Source of the DNA: Actinomycetes bacterium
GTDB taxonomy: Bacteria; Actinomycetota; Actinomycetes; JAHEKZ01
DNA: 51,509 nt
NCBI GenBank assembly: GCA_024644435.1
Contig: JAHEKZ010000001.1
Coordinates: forward strand, 65,703-117,211
Direction of reading: 5' to 3'
The translations under genes and the position numbers were made by a program. Numbering within the stretch: the first letter of the stretch is position 1; every line of letters starts with the position of its first letter. Of the stretch, positions 31,933-37,924 are shown in pieces. The notes below the pieces were generated by a model. That model was not told the DNA's origin. It worked only from the letters and a program-made list of their open reading frames with translations, and made no database searches.

Positions 31933-33207
31933 GTGGTTCATTGGTCGGTCACCCGCGTCATTGCCGTCATCGTCGCCGCTCTCGGACTTCTCGGAACTGT
32001 CGCCGTCGTCTCCGCCGGTCCCGCAAGTGCTGAGGGCGAAGCAATCCAAGGCACCCTGCGTGACCTGGCCGGCGCTCCCGTTGTCGGGGTCACCATCACC
32101 GTCAGCAATGACGGCGGGTTCTCAGACAGCTCGGTGTCCGATGCCGAGGGTGCCTGGGCCGTCGAGGTGCCCGGTCCGGGGGCCTACTCGGTGCTGCTCG
32201 ACGAGGACACACTTCCGGATGGCACCACGCCACCCACGGTGAACCCCATCACCACGAGCGCCGACCCCGGTACGCCGAGGTTCATCAACTTCCGCCTCGG
32301 TGAGCGAGAGCGAAACGTCCAGTCCCGGTGGGACAGGGCGGCACAGCTGTCAGTCGAGGGCTTGCGGTTCGGTCTGGTCCTGGCACTGGCTGCGGTCGGC
32401 CTGTCGCTGATCTACGGAACGACTGGGCTCACGAACTTCGCCCATGGCGAGATCATGACGTTCGGCGCCATCTCCACGTGGTTCTTCAACGTCAATCTCG
32501 GGATCAACCTCATCGGCGCCGCAGTCCTGGGGGTCATCACCGCCGGAGTCTTCGGCTGGGCCCAGGAACGTGGTCTGTGGCGACCCCTCCGAAAACGAGG
32601 CACCGGTCTGATCGCGATGATGATCGTCTCGATCGGATTCGCACTAGCCCTGGCGAACACGTATCTCATCATCTTTGGCGGGGCCAGCCGCCCGTACGCT
32701 GACTACGACTCGCAGGCAGGCATCGAGTTCGGTCCGGTGAGCCTGACGCCGAAGGACATGATCTCGATGGTGATTGCTGCGGTCATCCTGGCAATCGCCG
32801 GCCTTGCACTGCTGAAGACCCGCATGGGCAAGGCCACGAGGGCCGTGGCTGACAACCCGGCGCTGGCAGCATCATCTGGAATCGATGTCGACCGCGTCAT
32901 CATGGTGGTCTGGATCAGCGGGGCGGCCCTCGCCGGGCTCGGCGGGGTCATGCTGGCCATGACGCAGCAAGTCTCCTACTTGATGGGCACGCAGACGCTT
33001 CTGCTCATCTTCGCCGCCGTCACCTTGGGCGGACTAGGTACAGCCTTCGGTGCACTCGTGGGCAGCCTGGTAGTTGGCATGTTGATCCAGCTCTCGACGC
33101 TGTGGATCAACCCTGAGCTGAAGAATGTCGGGGCATTGCTGGTCATGATCATCGTCCTGATGGTCAGACCCCAGGGCATCCTGGGACGACGAAGCAGGGT
33201 GGGGTGA
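31933..33207 (+). CDS. livH: LivH-type permease with exported carboxypeptidase-regulatory-like domain
   Basis: Membrane subunit of a branched-chain amino acid (HAAT family) ABC importer. It has 424 residues against about 290 usual for LivH. GGGAG lies eight bases before the GTG. Residues 1-33 are a signal peptide or first membrane span ending AGPASA. Residues 37-122 form a small beta domain (IQGTLRDLAGAPVVGVTITV, VSDAEGAWAVEVPGPGAYSV) resembling the carboxypeptidase-regulatory/transthyretin-like fold, which would face outside. The LivH core follows from residue 138: LALAAVGLSLIYGTTGLTNFAHGE, MMIVSIGFALALANTYL, and MGKATRAVADNPALAASSGID, the loop that contacts the ATPase. The C-terminus MVRPQGILGRR is typical. 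First gene of livH-livM-livG-livF. Confidence 0.93.
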   Translation: MVHWSVTRVIAVIVAALGLLGTVAVVSAGPASAEGEAIQGTLRDLAGAPVVGVTITVSNDGGFSDSSVSDAEGAWAVEVPGPGAYSVLLDEDTLPDGTTPPTVNPITTSADPGTPRFINFRLGERERNVQSRWDRAAQLSVEGLRFGLVLALAAVGLSLIYGTTGLTNFAHGEIMTFGAISTWFFNVNLGINLIGAAVLGVITAGVFGWAQERGLWRPLRKRGTGLIAMMIVSIGFALALANTYLIIFGGASRPYADYDSQAGIEFGPVSLTPKDMISMVIAAVILAIAGLALLKTRMGKATRAVADNPALAASSGIDVDRVIMVVWISGAALAGLGGVMLAMTQQVSYLMGTQTLLLIFAAVTLGGLGTAFGALVGSLVVGMLIQLSTLWINPELKNVGALLVMIIVLMVRPQGILGRRSRVG

Positions 33208-33214
33208 GGCTCTG

Positions 33215-34201
33215 ATGGACTGGGGATTTATCTTCACCACATCAATGTCGGCCGCGATCGGCATCAGCGCCATCGTGTTCTGCCTCGGAGCAATCGGGCT
33301 GAACATCCAGTTCGGATACACCGGTCTGCTCAACTTCGGTCAGGCTGCGTTCCTCGCAGTGGCCGGCTACGGCCTCGCGACAACGGTGACCACCCTGGGG
33401 CTGAACTTCTGGCTCGGAATAGTGGTCGGCATGGCCGCTACCGTGGTGCTGGCGGTCATCCTCGGTATTCCCACGCTGCGGTTGCGGGCCGACTACCTGG
33501 CCATCGTGACCATCGCTGCCGCTGAGATCCTTCGCCTCACACTTCGTTCGGTGGCGTTCAAGGACACGTTCGGAGGGTCGGACGGTCTGCAGCAGTTCTC
33601 CGATGCCTTCTACAAGCTCAACCCCATCTCTCCAGGGGCCTACGACTTCGGTCCCTTCAAGTACAACGAGAAGTCGTGGTGGGTGATCATCGTTGGATGG
33701 TCGCTCGTCGCGGTGTGGACCCTGCTGGTGTTCCTGCTCATGCGGAGCCCCTTCGGGCGAGTTCTCCGGGGTATCCGTGAAGACGAGGATGCGGTCCGCA
33801 GCCTCGGAAAGAACGTCTACTGGTACAAGATGCAGGCGCTGATCCTCGGTGGACTCGGCGGCGCATTCGCAGGGTTCATGCTGGCACTCGGCCAGTCGGC
33901 GGTCTCCCCTGACGCCTACGCCACGAACCTGACCTTCTTGATCTACGTGGTTCTCATCATCGGTGGAGCAGCGCGGGTGTTCGGCCCGATCCTGGGGGCG
34001 TTGATCTTCTCCTTCCTGTTCCAGTTCGTCGACGTCGTCCTCGACCAAGCTGTCAACACCGGGTTGATCACCTTCATCACGAGCACCCAGGCGGCCCAGA
34101 TCCGACTCGTCATGGTCGGGGTTGGCTTGATGCTCTTGATGATCTATCGACCGCAGGGAATCTTGGGCGACCGAAAGGAGCTGCAGCTCGATGCGCGCTG
34201 A
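33215..34201 (+). CDS. livM: LivM-type branched-chain amino acid ABC permease
   Basis: Second membrane subunit of the importer, 328 residues. Hydrophobic spans include AIVFCLGAIGLNIQFGYTG near residue 20. LNFGQAAFLAVAGYG is the LivM hallmark. The ATPase-coupling loop is SPFGRVLRGIREDEDAVRSLGKN (split at residues 178-200). The C-terminus MLLMIYRPQGILGDRKEL matches the family. The start lies seven bases after the livH stop with GGGGTGAGG as ribosome-binding site, and the end overlaps livG by 11 bases. An insertion around residues 120-155 (FSDAFYKLNPISPGAYDFG) is an extracytoplasmic loop. Confidence 0.95.
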   Translation: MDWGFIFTTSMSAAIGISAIVFCLGAIGLNIQFGYTGLLNFGQAAFLAVAGYGLATTVTTLGLNFWLGIVVGMAATVVLAVILGIPTLRLRADYLAIVTIAAAEILRLTLRSVAFKDTFGGSDGLQQFSDAFYKLNPISPGAYDFGPFKYNEKSWWVIIVGWSLVAVWTLLVFLLMRSPFGRVLRGIREDEDAVRSLGKNVYWYKMQALILGGLGGAFAGFMLALGQSAVSPDAYATNLTFLIYVVLIIGGAARVFGPILGALIFSFLFQFVDVVLDQAVNTGLITFITSTQAAQIRLVMVGVGLMLLMIYRPQGILGDRKELQLDAR

Positions 34202-35123
34202 CCAGTCGATGAACACAAGCCGAGACGCCGCTGTCGCCGCGCTTGCCGACCTGCCACGCGAGCCCGGCGTCTCCAAGCCCGACCCGATCTTGATCGCCGA
34301 CAACGTCGTGCGCCGCTTCGGTGGTCTCACTGCTGTCGACGTCGACCACGTCGAAGTTCAGCGGGGCGCCATCACCGCGCTGATCGGTCCCAACGGTGCG
34401 GGTAAGACCACCTTCTTCAATCTCCTGACCGGCTTCGACAAGGTCGACGAAGGCGAGTGGACCTATAACGGCAAGGCGATCCAGGGCGTGCCCCCCTACA
34501 AGGTGGCCCGCATGGGAATGGTGCGCACCTTCCAGCTGACCAAGGTGTTGACTCGCCTCACCGTGATCGAGAACATGCGGCTCGGCGCCACCGGACAGCG
34601 AGGCGAGCGCGTGCTCCCCAGCGTCATCAGAGCTCTGTGGAGCGGGCAGGAACGCGAGATCACCGAGCGCGCGGACGACCTGCTCAGACGGTTCAAGCTG
34701 GACGCCAAGCGTGAGGACTTCGCAGGGTCGCTCTCCGGCGGGCAGCGCAAACTGCTCGAGATGGCGCGATCGCTCATGGTCAACCCCGAGCTGGTGATGC
34801 TCGATGAGCCCATGGCGGGGGTCAACCCGGCGCTCACCCAGTCGTTGCTCGGTCACGTCAAGGATCTCCGTGAACTCGGGATGACCGTCCTTTTCGTCGA
34901 GCACGACATGGACATGGTGCGCGACATCTCCGACTGGGTCATCGTCATGGCGCAGGGCAAGATCATCGCCGAAGGGCCTCCCCACGAGGTCATGGCCGAC
35001 ACCCGGGTCATCGACGCATACCTAGGCGCCCACCACGACCAGTCCCTCGCTGAGATCGCAGAAGAAGAGGGGCTCGATGTGGCCGGGGAGATCCTCGACA
35101 CGGATGGTGGTGTCCAGACATGA
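34191..35123 (+). CDS. livG: LivG-type ABC transporter ATPase
   Basis: One of two ATPases powering the importer, 310 residues. Walker A is GPNGAGKTTFF (about residue 68), signature LSGGQRKLLEMARSLM (about 180), Walker B ELVMLDEPMAGVNP, and switch His in VLFVEHDMDMV. The MAGVNP sequence after Walker B is characteristic of LivG. There is a 35-residue N-terminal extension before the core and a roughly 25-residue acidic C-terminal extension (AEIAEEEGLDVAGEIL), both outside the conserved fold. Start and end overlap livM and livF, indicating tight coupling. Confidence 0.95.
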   Translation: MRADQSMNTSRDAAVAALADLPREPGVSKPDPILIADNVVRRFGGLTAVDVDHVEVQRGAITALIGPNGAGKTTFFNLLTGFDKVDEGEWTYNGKAIQGVPPYKVARMGMVRTFQLTKVLTRLTVIENMRLGATGQRGERVLPSVIRALWSGQEREITERADDLLRRFKLDAKREDFAGSLSGGQRKLLEMARSLMVNPELVMLDEPMAGVNPALTQSLLGHVKDLRELGMTVLFVEHDMDMVRDISDWVIVMAQGKIIAEGPPHEVMADTRVIDAYLGAHHDQSLAEIAEEEGLDVAGEILDTDGGVQT

Positions 35124-35956
35124 CGAACCCTGCAGGCGGCCTCACACCTGGCGAAGTGCACAACGCTGAGGTCGAGCTCGAACGCGACCGGGATCAACCG
35201 ATTCCTGATCGCAGCGCCCATCTGGAGGCAATGCCGAACGCCCTGGTCATCGCAGACAACCTGGTGGCTGGTTACCTCCCTGGGGTCAACATCCTCAATG
35301 GCTGCGACCTCTATGCCAACCGCGGAGAACTGGTCGGCATCATCGGGCCGAACGGCGCCGGCAAGTCCACGCTTCTCAAGGCGCTCTTCGGTCTCGTCCG
35401 CGTGCACGAAGGTCAAGTGATCCTCGACGGCCAGGACATCACCAACCTCAAGCCGAACCGGCTGGTGTCGCAGGGCGTCGGATTCGTGCCACAGAACAAC
35501 AACGTCTTCCCGAGTCTGACCATCGAAGAGAATCTGCAGATGGGCGCCTATCAGGCACCCAAGAACTTCGCGGAGCGCTTCGACTTCGTCGCCTCGCTCT
35601 TCCCCACACTGGCCGACCGACGCAAGCAACCGGCCGGCTCGCTGTCAGGTGGCGAGCGGCAGATGGTCGCAATGAGCCGCGCGCTCATGATGGACCCCTC
35701 GGTCATCCTGCTCGACGAGCCGTCGGCTGGCCTCTCCCCCGTGCTGCAGGACGAGGTCTTTGTGCGGACCAAGCAGATCAACACGGCAGGCGTCACAGTG
35801 ATCATGGTCGAGCAGAACGCGCGACGCTGCCTGCAGATCTGTGACCGCGGCTACGTGCTGGACCAGGGCAAGAATGCCCATACCGGCACCGGGGCTGACC
35901 TTCTGAACGACCCGAAGGTGATCCAGCTCTACCTCGGCACCCTCGCCAAGGCCTGA
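35120..35956 (+). CDS. livF: LivF-type ABC transporter ATPase
   Basis: Second ATPase of the importer, 278 residues. Walker A is GPNGAGKSTLLKALFG (about residue 76), signature LSGGERQMVAMSRALM, Walker B SVILLDEPSAGLSP, and switch His position is replaced in VIMVEQNARR, where Gln follows Glu as is usual in LivF. FVPQNNNVFPSLTIEENL is the Q-loop region. The N-terminal 40 residues are an extension. The start overlaps the livG stop as ATGA. It is the last gene of the plus-strand operon, before a strong terminator. Confidence 0.95.
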   Translation: MTNPAGGLTPGEVHNAEVELERDRDQPIPDRSAHLEAMPNALVIADNLVAGYLPGVNILNGCDLYANRGELVGIIGPNGAGKSTLLKALFGLVRVHEGQVILDGQDITNLKPNRLVSQGVGFVPQNNNVFPSLTIEENLQMGAYQAPKNFAERFDFVASLFPTLADRRKQPAGSLSGGERQMVAMSRALMMDPSVILLDEPSAGLSPVLQDEVFVRTKQINTAGVTVIMVEQNARRCLQICDRGYVLDQGKNAHTGTGADLLNDPKVIQLYLGTLAKA

Positions 35957-36145: not shown

Positions 36146-36177
36146 AGAGGGGCCCGGCCGTATGGCCGGGCCCCTCT
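36146..36177. terminator. strong bidirectional terminator between livF and livK
   Basis: AGAGGGGCCCGGCC (36146-36159) pairs perfectly over 14 bp with GGCCGGGCCCCTCT (36164-36177); the loop is GTAT. It sits between the convergent livF and binding-protein genes, 13 bases after the latter's stop codon. There is no long T tract, as is common in actinobacteria. Confidence 0.9.
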
Positions 36178-36190
36178 ACTGAGCGAACGG

Positions 36191-37549
36191 TCAGCTGTTC
36201 GGACCGATGCCTTGCTTGACGAGCTCGCTGACCACCTTGGCCGACTCGTCGAACCCGATCAGGACGATGGCATCTGGGTCCATTGCCTTGATCTTCGAGA
36301 CCTCGGCAGCGAAGTTGTTCGCCGTCGGGTCGTAGTAGATCGCGTCTGGCTCGGTGAGCACGGTGCCGCCACCCTCGGAGAACGAGAGTGCGGTGTACTC
36401 GGCCAAGCCTTCACCGTAGGCGTCCTGCAGCGACAAGATCGCCACGTTCTGGATGCCGTCAGCGTTGAGCAGGTTGCCCAACACACGACCCTGGAGCACG
36501 TCGGACGGGGCGGTACGGAAGTACAGCCCGGAGTCCTGTGAGTTCGTCAGGTCGGGTGAGGTGTTGGCAGGCGAGACCTGAAGGATCCCGGCGCCGGTGA
36601 CCTGCTCGAGCGTGTTGAGGCTCACACTGGATGAAGCTGCTCCAATGATCGCGTCGACGCCGCGCTGGATCTGCTTGTCGATCGTCTGCACACCCTTGTC
36701 GAAGTTGGCCGAGTCGCTGGAGTCTCCGTTGAACCACAAGACGTCCTTACCGAGCGCTCCACCACCCTCGTTGGCCTCCTGGACGGCGAGCTCGACGCCA
36801 GCCACCTCGGGCGGGCCGAGCGAGGCAAGCGATCCGGTCAACGGCAGGTATCCGCCCAGCTTGAGCTGGTCGTCGCTGGCACCGCGGTTGTCCTTCGACG
36901 CCAGCGGGTCCGGGCTGCCTTCGGTCGGGTCGATCTGACCAGACTCGTAGTTCAGCGCTGAACCATCCGCCGTAAGACCTGGAACCGTGTTTGTGGCGTC
37001 GTACTGGTAGATGCCAACGAACGCCGACGTCGGGTCACCGAAGTCGTCGAACTCGATCGGACCAGATTGGCCGTCGTAGTCGATGTCATCGCCCTGCGCC
37101 AGCATCTTGTTGCAGTCGTCGAACGTGCTGCACTTGTTGCCGCCCGTGGTCACGTCCTGCATTGCCGCGGCAATGTCTCGCCCGGCGTCAGACTTGGCCG
37201 CAATCGAAGCCAAGATAACGACCATGGCAGCGTCGTAGGACTCAGGTCCGTACGAGTAGCCGATCTTCTTCAGGCTCGAGTCGATCCCGTTGAGCCTGTT
37301 CTTGAAGTCGGAGCTGGCCTCGGCACCAGGGAGCGTTCCCTTGACGCCCTCCAAAGTTCCAGCCGGCAACTCTGCCAGCGGGCCGTTTCCGATGTTGCCG
37401 TCCACCAGGTAGAGCGGGGTGCCGCTGCTCTGGGGCGCCGACGAGGTGCTGCTGCTACCACCGTCATCACTGCCGCCGCACGCCGCAAGCACGAGGCCTG
37501 CAGCACCAGCAACAGCGACCAGACGCCATGAGGCGTTTGCTCGAATCAT
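36191..37549 (-). CDS. livK: circularly permuted branched-chain amino acid-binding lipoprotein
   Basis: Extracytoplasmic substrate-binding protein of the leucine/isoleucine/valine type, 452 residues, ATG with AAGGAG six bases upstream. Residues 1-24 are a lipoprotein signal (LAAC, Cys24), then a Ser/Gly linker. Residues 44-188 (TPLYLVDGNIGNG, TLEGVKGTLPG, YDAAMVVILASIA, Cys140/Cys146, DDIDYDGQSGPIEFDDFGD) correspond to the usual C-terminal part of the family. Residues 189-226 are a low-complexity linker. Residues 227-452 (LKLGGYLPLTGSLASLGPP, VDAIIGAASSSVSLNTL, FRTAPSDVLQGRVLGNLL, DPDAIVLIGFDESAKVV) correspond to the usual N-terminal part. The final GIGPNS would join naturally to TPLYLVDGN, so order is exchanged without loss. 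It lies convergent to livHMGF. Confidence 0.92.
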   Translation of the reverse strand: MIRANASWRLVAVAGAAGLVLAACGGSDDGGSSSTSSAPQSSGTPLYLVDGNIGNGPLAELPAGTLEGVKGTLPGAEASSDFKNRLNGIDSSLKKIGYSYGPESYDAAMVVILASIAAKSDAGRDIAAAMQDVTTGGNKCSTFDDCNKMLAQGDDIDYDGQSGPIEFDDFGDPTSAFVGIYQYDATNTVPGLTADGSALNYESGQIDPTEGSPDPLASKDNRGASDDQLKLGGYLPLTGSLASLGPPEVAGVELAVQEANEGGGALGKDVLWFNGDSSDSANFDKGVQTIDKQIQRGVDAIIGAASSSVSLNTLEQVTGAGILQVSPANTSPDLTNSQDSGLYFRTAPSDVLQGRVLGNLLNADGIQNVAILSLQDAYGEGLAEYTALSFSEGGGTVLTEPDAIYYDPTANNFAAEVSKIKAMDPDAIVLIGFDESAKVVSELVKQGIGPNS

Positions 37550-37804: not shown

Positions 37805-37886
37805 GCCCCGGTGGCGGAATTGGCAGACGCGGCGGATTCAAAATCCGTTGCCGAAAGGCATGAGGGTTCAAGTCCCTCCCGGGGCA
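37805..37886 (+). tRNA. tRNA-Leu (anticodon CAA)
   Basis: The acceptor stem GCCCCGG (37805-37811) pairs with CCGGGGC (37879-37885), with discriminator A at 37886. The anticodon loop TTCAAAA has anticodon CAA, read between stem GCGGA and TCCGT. A long variable arm (TGCC-GAAA-GGCA) and the T loop GGTTCAAGTCC confirm a class II leucine tRNA. CCA is not encoded. A TACACT -10-like element at 37774-37779 could be its promoter. Confidence 0.97.
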
Positions 37887-37924
37887 CCCACTCAGAAGGC
37901 CGCGCTCTGGCACGCCCCACGCCG

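Follow-up and report, generated by a model that had tools for sequence, protein, structure and literature searches.

In the window, by which we mean the whole 51,509-nt stretch of an Actinomycetes bacterium contig analyzed here, a gene beside the livHMGF operon was found to encode a substrate-binding lipoprotein in which the two halves of the Peripla_BP_6 domain stand in exchanged order. Profile matches, conservation, and genomic context indicate that this gene very probably encodes the working substrate-binding protein (SBP) of the adjacent LivHMGF importer of branched-chain amino acids (or similar compounds), and that the protein is genuinely circularly permuted. Judging from the sequences of its relatives, the permutation is an ancient and recurrent feature of this family and not a one-off event.

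Most circular permutations found in nature go back to one old event, and their ordinary counterparts are remote. For Type I SBPs, a natural permutation is already known from TpMglB-2, and the recurrence within one family is the interesting part of the present case. In the open-licence literature, we found neither a report of a permuted Liv-type protein nor an orthologous SBP family in which permutation had occurred independently more than once. Related genera carry permuted or ordinary orthologs at a shared syntenic position, a natural experiment in the causes and course of protein permutation. With several origins and two breakpoints, the route, the constraint on the breakpoint, and any benefit become testable by comparing natural pairs.

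Domain Order and Genomic Context of the Window Protein

The 452-residue ORF lies on the minus strand, and its checked translation is that of a lipoprotein (table 1). The earlier note had claimed an ORF of this length with exchanged segments, which agrees with the ORF, the translation, and the profile matches. Using Pfam PF13458, for which the window protein exceeds the curated cut-off of 31.7 bits in both orders, we found that the native chain is matched at residues 229–448 only (profile 2–215 of 343, 106.8 bits), whereas the re-ordered chain gives a single match over profile 2–312 of 343 (119.8 bits). A sharper profile, built only from ordinary-order orthologs, matched the native chain in two pieces, profile 3–224 at residues 226–451 (303.9 bits) and profile 224–369 at residues 42–189 (188.6 bits), and the re-ordered chain as one domain, so that 509 bits in one piece stand against 304 + 189. 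Both pieces join at profile position 224, indicating that nothing was lost or doubled at the breakpoint and bearing out the proposed continuity of GIGPNS into TPLYLVDGN: the N-half ends at the exact point where an ordinary protein would run on. By its profile score the window protein belongs to the Liv-type Type I SBPs, but it lacks their collinear N-to-C order. On this profile evidence, it is a Peripla_BP_6 member by descent and a permuted variant by topology.

The earlier note was right to place the C-terminal half first, but its boundary at residue 188 has to be moved to about 207, since NYESGQI matches the DFRFGQI-stop of the ordinary ortholog L006 and the old natural C-terminus is thus kept. 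The linker, previously given as 38 residues, is therefore only about 19 residues long; it is the least conserved segment of the protein (56–79% identity in the genus). At the other end, residues 1–30 are 70–80% identical to the start of an ordinary ortholog and of a congener, and the signal peptide and tether are homologous to those of ordinary orthologs. The Cys pair at residues 140 and 146, described before as intact, does not vary across a diverse set of 17 permuted proteins (C95 and C101 in A1). An AF2 model from a two-sequence alignment (window protein and L032) had a mean pLDDT of 30.

Scanning of the window protein against NCBIfam revealed no specific model, with weak LivK/urea-binding matches far below cut-off. 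Pfam and NCBIfam matches cover only the second half of permuted proteins, a warning that domain scans can misread permuted SBPs as truncated.

The protein has a lipoprotein signal with a LAAC lipobox, and its gene is linked to livHMGF, which converges on it from the plus strand (31933–35956), with tRNA-Leu(CAA), nusB, and efp on its far side. A neighborhood of polA, thioesterase, DUF554, livHMGF, SBP, and tRNA-Leu(CAA) was also observed in many families of the class, where the SBPs have ordinary order, implying that the permuted gene of the window is the positional ortholog of these ordinary genes.

Table 1. Features of the permuted SBP locus, in window coordinates
Feature	Position	Strand	Evidence or remark
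livH permease with N-terminal CarboxypepD_reg ectodomain	31933..33207	+	Pfam BPD_transp_2, CarboxypepD_reg
livM permease	33215..34201	+	Pfam BPD_transp_2
livG ATPase	34191..35123	+	Pfam ABC_tran + BCA_ABC_TP_C
livF ATPase	35120..35956	+	Pfam ABC_tran
Perfect 14-bp-stem hairpin, terminator-like	36146..36177	.	Between convergent livF and SBP genes, past SBP stop
Permuted Liv-type substrate-binding lipoprotein gene, 452 aa	36191..37549	-	ORF, translation, domain order, genus conservation
N-terminal half of Peripla_BP_6, placed last, residues 227–452 (LKLGGYLPLTG...GIGPNS)	36194..36871	-	Profile matches
Linker, old C-terminus to old mature N-terminus, residues 208–226	36872..36928	-	Aligned by neither half
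C-terminal half of Peripla_BP_6, placed first, residues 44–207 (TPLYLVDGN...NYESGQI)	36929..37420	-	Half-profile and ordinary-ortholog profile matches
Signal peptide, lipobox (LAAC, Cys24), and short Ser/Gly-rich tether, residues 1–43	37421..37549	-	Sequence
tRNA-Leu(CAA)	37805..37888	+	Syntenic marker beside SBP gene in most related loci

Conservation and Selection

Each of the four genomes sampled from the genus encodes the full-length permuted protein in an unbroken frame (100, 93, 71, and 70% identity), and one of the four is also present as a separately titled public MAG record (JAHELE010000012.1). Several other families have the permuted order too. Within the genus, dN/dS is 0.03–0.28 for the halves, with higher values for the linker, and the gene is under purifying selection. 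Permuted relatives also occur on complete single-contig chromosomes (e.g., G700:C1 and G610:C1). These observations, together with the profile alignments, uphold the proposal of a true circular permutation. The further claim that the signal peptide and frame are intact and the gene is not broken fits the finding that this SBP is the only PF13458 match found in its genome and lies beside livHMGF, with a Shine-Dalgarno-like AAGGAGT and a hairpin at its 3' end.

The window genome is a draft assembly of 110 contigs, and a misjoin within 36191–37549 might have swapped the halves. We consider the probability of such an assembly or binning artifact negligible, as the permuted reading frame is complete and uninterrupted in the three further genomes of the genus, the separately titled MAG contig repeats it, permuted kin lie on single-contig chromosomes, and the continuous frame is under purifying selection; the congeners, the MAG, and the complete chromosomes rule it out. 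Fusion of halves from two unrelated genes was also ruled out, as both halves group with the same orthologs in the half-trees (see below).

Compared with its closest congener, L003, the window protein is 99% identical in the N-half and 88% in the C-half (dS 0.35 vs. 0.55). This uneven divergence perhaps reflects partial recombination.

Distribution of Permuted Proteins and Breakpoints

Families of the sampled genome set are referred to by internal labels (f codes), f1 being the family of the window genus. A permuted copy was detected in approximately 100 sampled genomes, and a query across the permuted junction gave matches in three further families. Searches and two half-profiles identified copies with the same, first breakpoint in f34/g85 (3 genomes), f26 (25), f48 (14, all of the f48 genomes sampled), f37 (11), and f61 (1). 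In the class sample, 9 of the 88 genomes with a close homolog had the permuted form.

In the phylum sample, a second breakpoint, located downstream of the other by about 20 residues, was found in other classes (f124, f70, and f83). These second-breakpoint proteins end in ...GIGPxxxxVYGxDGNxGNALxxxFxxGx, start with LAGMKGTTPL or similar, and adjoin livFGMH. Classified by query span, 41 of the 68 f83 genomes with a match are permuted, outnumbering ordinary copies. There are families with both ordinary and permuted forms, and no correlate of the difference is evident.

Examples of second-breakpoint SBPs in other classes of the phylum are L173–L178 (genomes G1208, G1028, G1112, and G1170). Several f37 proteins (L163, L164, L165, and L184) have no liv genes within about 9 kb and form a long branch in the tree; they are possibly orphan or re-purposed binding proteins. 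Additional permuted copies were also observed: a second permuted paralog away from the liv operon (L168, in G581), two copies each in G593 and G635, and a tandem pair of permuted SBP copies (G1243:C22:10688-13231). Among plasmid records there were four matches, and the two examined included no permuted copy: they were ordinary-order SBPs (Nonomuraea) and an SBP split over two frames (Arthrobacter plasmid). No relative was detected in the viral contigs scanned.

Number of Independent Permutations

Trees were built on the re-ordered core of the proteins, and separate trees were also made for the N-half and the C-half. The first-breakpoint proteins fell into clades A (f48, f37, and f61), B (f1 with f34/g85), and C (permuted f26). 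Clade C was sister to the ordinary f26 proteins in the whole-core tree. It stayed with ordinary f26 in the N-half and C-half trees, in which B and C were never joined, and this agreement argues against chimeras. AU tests rejected a single clade of all permuted proteins (P-value = 4e-8), B+C (P-value = 6e-7), and A+C (P-value = 2e-4). The P-value for A+B was 0.077 in a smaller sampling and 0.001 with other-class sequences added; given this dependence on sampling, three first-breakpoint events are likely and two are firm. In the wider tree, which included other classes, clade A was unresolved near the root. The second-breakpoint proteins were split in the tree, and a single clade was not rejected (P-value = 0.06). 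A tree of the liv operon, meant to stand in for the species tree, had low resolution and suffered from the mis-sampled locus L161, which shows no liv genes near its SBP; we give it no weight.

Barring exact reversions, these trees firmly indicate a minimum of three gains, of which two were at the first breakpoint and one was at the second, and four or more gains in this SBP family appear likely. Clade B joins families which are not neighbors for their other members, making lateral transfer of the locus within this clade plausible.

A different reading is a single ancient permutation, after which several lineages returned to ordinary order or permuted alleles were passed on laterally. The first breakpoint is equal within a few residues across A, B, and C, linker lengths are similar (29–38 residues between half-profiles), and an A+B clade was not rejected in the smaller sampling. 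In addition, B unites f1 with f34/g85, yet other f34 genera are ordinary and lie elsewhere in the tree, so that some transfer of the locus within B is likely, and the tree alone is compatible with some reversions to ordinary order. However, a single clade of all permuted proteins was rejected, C lies beside ordinary f26 in the whole-core and both half trees, and A, B, and C have ordinary lineages between them, which under a single gain would call for several exact reversions; moreover, the different second breakpoint cannot stem from the same event. We thus regard a single origin as improbable and prefer several independent gains.

Proposed Origin by Duplication

We infer from the sequences that these permutations arose by gene duplication. 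The first step of each would be a tandem duplication of an ordinary SBP gene, followed by in-frame fusion of the C-half of copy 1 to the N-half of copy 2 and then by removal of the two outer halves. The joint in those permuted proteins that were examined consists of the old C-terminus, a linker of about 20 residues, and the old mature N-terminus, often with its GDG(T/V) start kept, and the end of the chain falls no more than a few residues from the breakpoint. Old termini retained around the linker are the expected remnants of duplication, fusion, and trimming. A tandem pair of ordinary, unfused SBP genes was found at a liv locus (L171, 7912–10644, in G530), indicating that the first step of this route occurs.

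Permutation by duplication is a model described in a review, with DNA methyltransferases and saposin/swaposin as cases (PMC3320104). The mechanism considered here is alike, and intermediates are predicted by that model. Unlike the reviewed cases, the Liv SBP family shows repeated use of one breakpoint at an orthologous locus, and the 129 distinct ORFs surveyed included no fused intermediate, whether N-C-N or C-N-C.

Comparison with Known Binding Proteins

The window protein has significant matches to solved LivJ/LivK structures in PDB. It shares both halves, the lipobox, and the livHMGF neighbors with LivK/LivJ-type proteins (PF13458, Type I / Cluster B; PDB 4n0q, 4gnr, 3ipc, 1z15, and 1usg), and differs from these ordinary proteins in that the halves are exchanged.

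TpMglB-2 (Tp0684) of Treponema pallidum is a naturally permuted Type I SBP, for which the designation Type Ic / Cluster Bc was proposed; it binds glucose, changes conformation and closes, and has a fourth crossover (PMC4990184). It therefore provides a precedent for a functional permuted Type I SBP, and the window protein is likewise a natural circular permutation of a Type I binding lipoprotein. On the other hand, TpMglB-2 is a sugar-binding protein in which the strand order of the N-lobe is permuted and that of the C-lobe is unaffected, whereas the break in the window protein lies just before a C-lobe strand. Furthermore, a single group was described for TpMglB-2, whereas several independent events probably took place in the orthologous Liv SBP family. 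The best Pfam and PDB matches of the window protein are Liv-type, its break follows profile position ~215, and glucose/galactose-binding proteins were absent from the 60 PDB matches listed for it; neither TpMglB-2-like homology nor the same breakpoint was thus observed. Engineered permuted halves of T. maritima RBP indicate that the PBP fold tolerates permutation (PMC9815098), although those constructs are designed single lobes, whereas the window protein is a natural full-length chain.

Possible Function and Tethering

It is expected that the permuted SBP would carry out ordinary amino-acid delivery to LivHMGF. The permuted chain would still fold as an ordinary two-lobed Venus-flytrap with the ligand between the lobes. 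According to the alignment, the breakpoint corresponds approximately to residues 219/220 of 3ipc, which we take to be in the loop before the strand with the Liv ligand-site acidic residue. With the new ends in lobe 2, the point of lipid anchoring would shift from lobe 1 to lobe 2, and a fourth lobe-to-lobe connection would be supplied by the linker. A possible change of the tethered lobe follows from the fold, and we infer altered lobe tethering by the permutation. Its recurrence would reflect a tolerant loop together with a neutral or mildly favorable re-siting of the tether.

If the loop before VDGN is among the few sites at which new ends are tolerated and tandem duplication is frequent enough, drift might account for the recurrence. 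The inter-half loop varies in length among ordinary proteins (1–6 residues between half-profiles) and tandem copies occur at the locus (L171), but the permuted form holds across the sampled f48 genomes and reaches 41/68 in f83; we consider the arguments for and against such neutral recurrence evenly balanced. Alternatively, the permutation may have been selected because it shifts the tether from lobe 1 to lobe 2 and supplies a fourth inter-lobe strap, with altered docking or opening. Recurrence at one loop and its near neighbor, in lipoproteins mostly beside liv genes, is consistent with selection, and the authors of the TpMglB-2 study proposed tethering as a driver (PMC4990184). However, the tether of either form is flexible and of low complexity, and the two forms coexist in the same families; we consider selection somewhat less likely than not. 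That permutation took place repeatedly, in at least three clades at one loop, with a second loop also affected, because a lobe-2 anchor and a fourth strap are advantageous, as a case of convergent protein topology, seems rather unlikely to us. Natural pairs of permuted and ordinary SBPs bear on the tethering idea raised for TpMglB-2.

In the window LivH, a secreted N-terminal CarboxypepD_reg (Ig-like) domain precedes the permease. This domain was also observed in LivH of L034, a relative with an ordinary-order SBP, with a weaker match below the curated cut-off, indicating that its presence is not linked to the permutation. The tethered SBP could dock on this domain.
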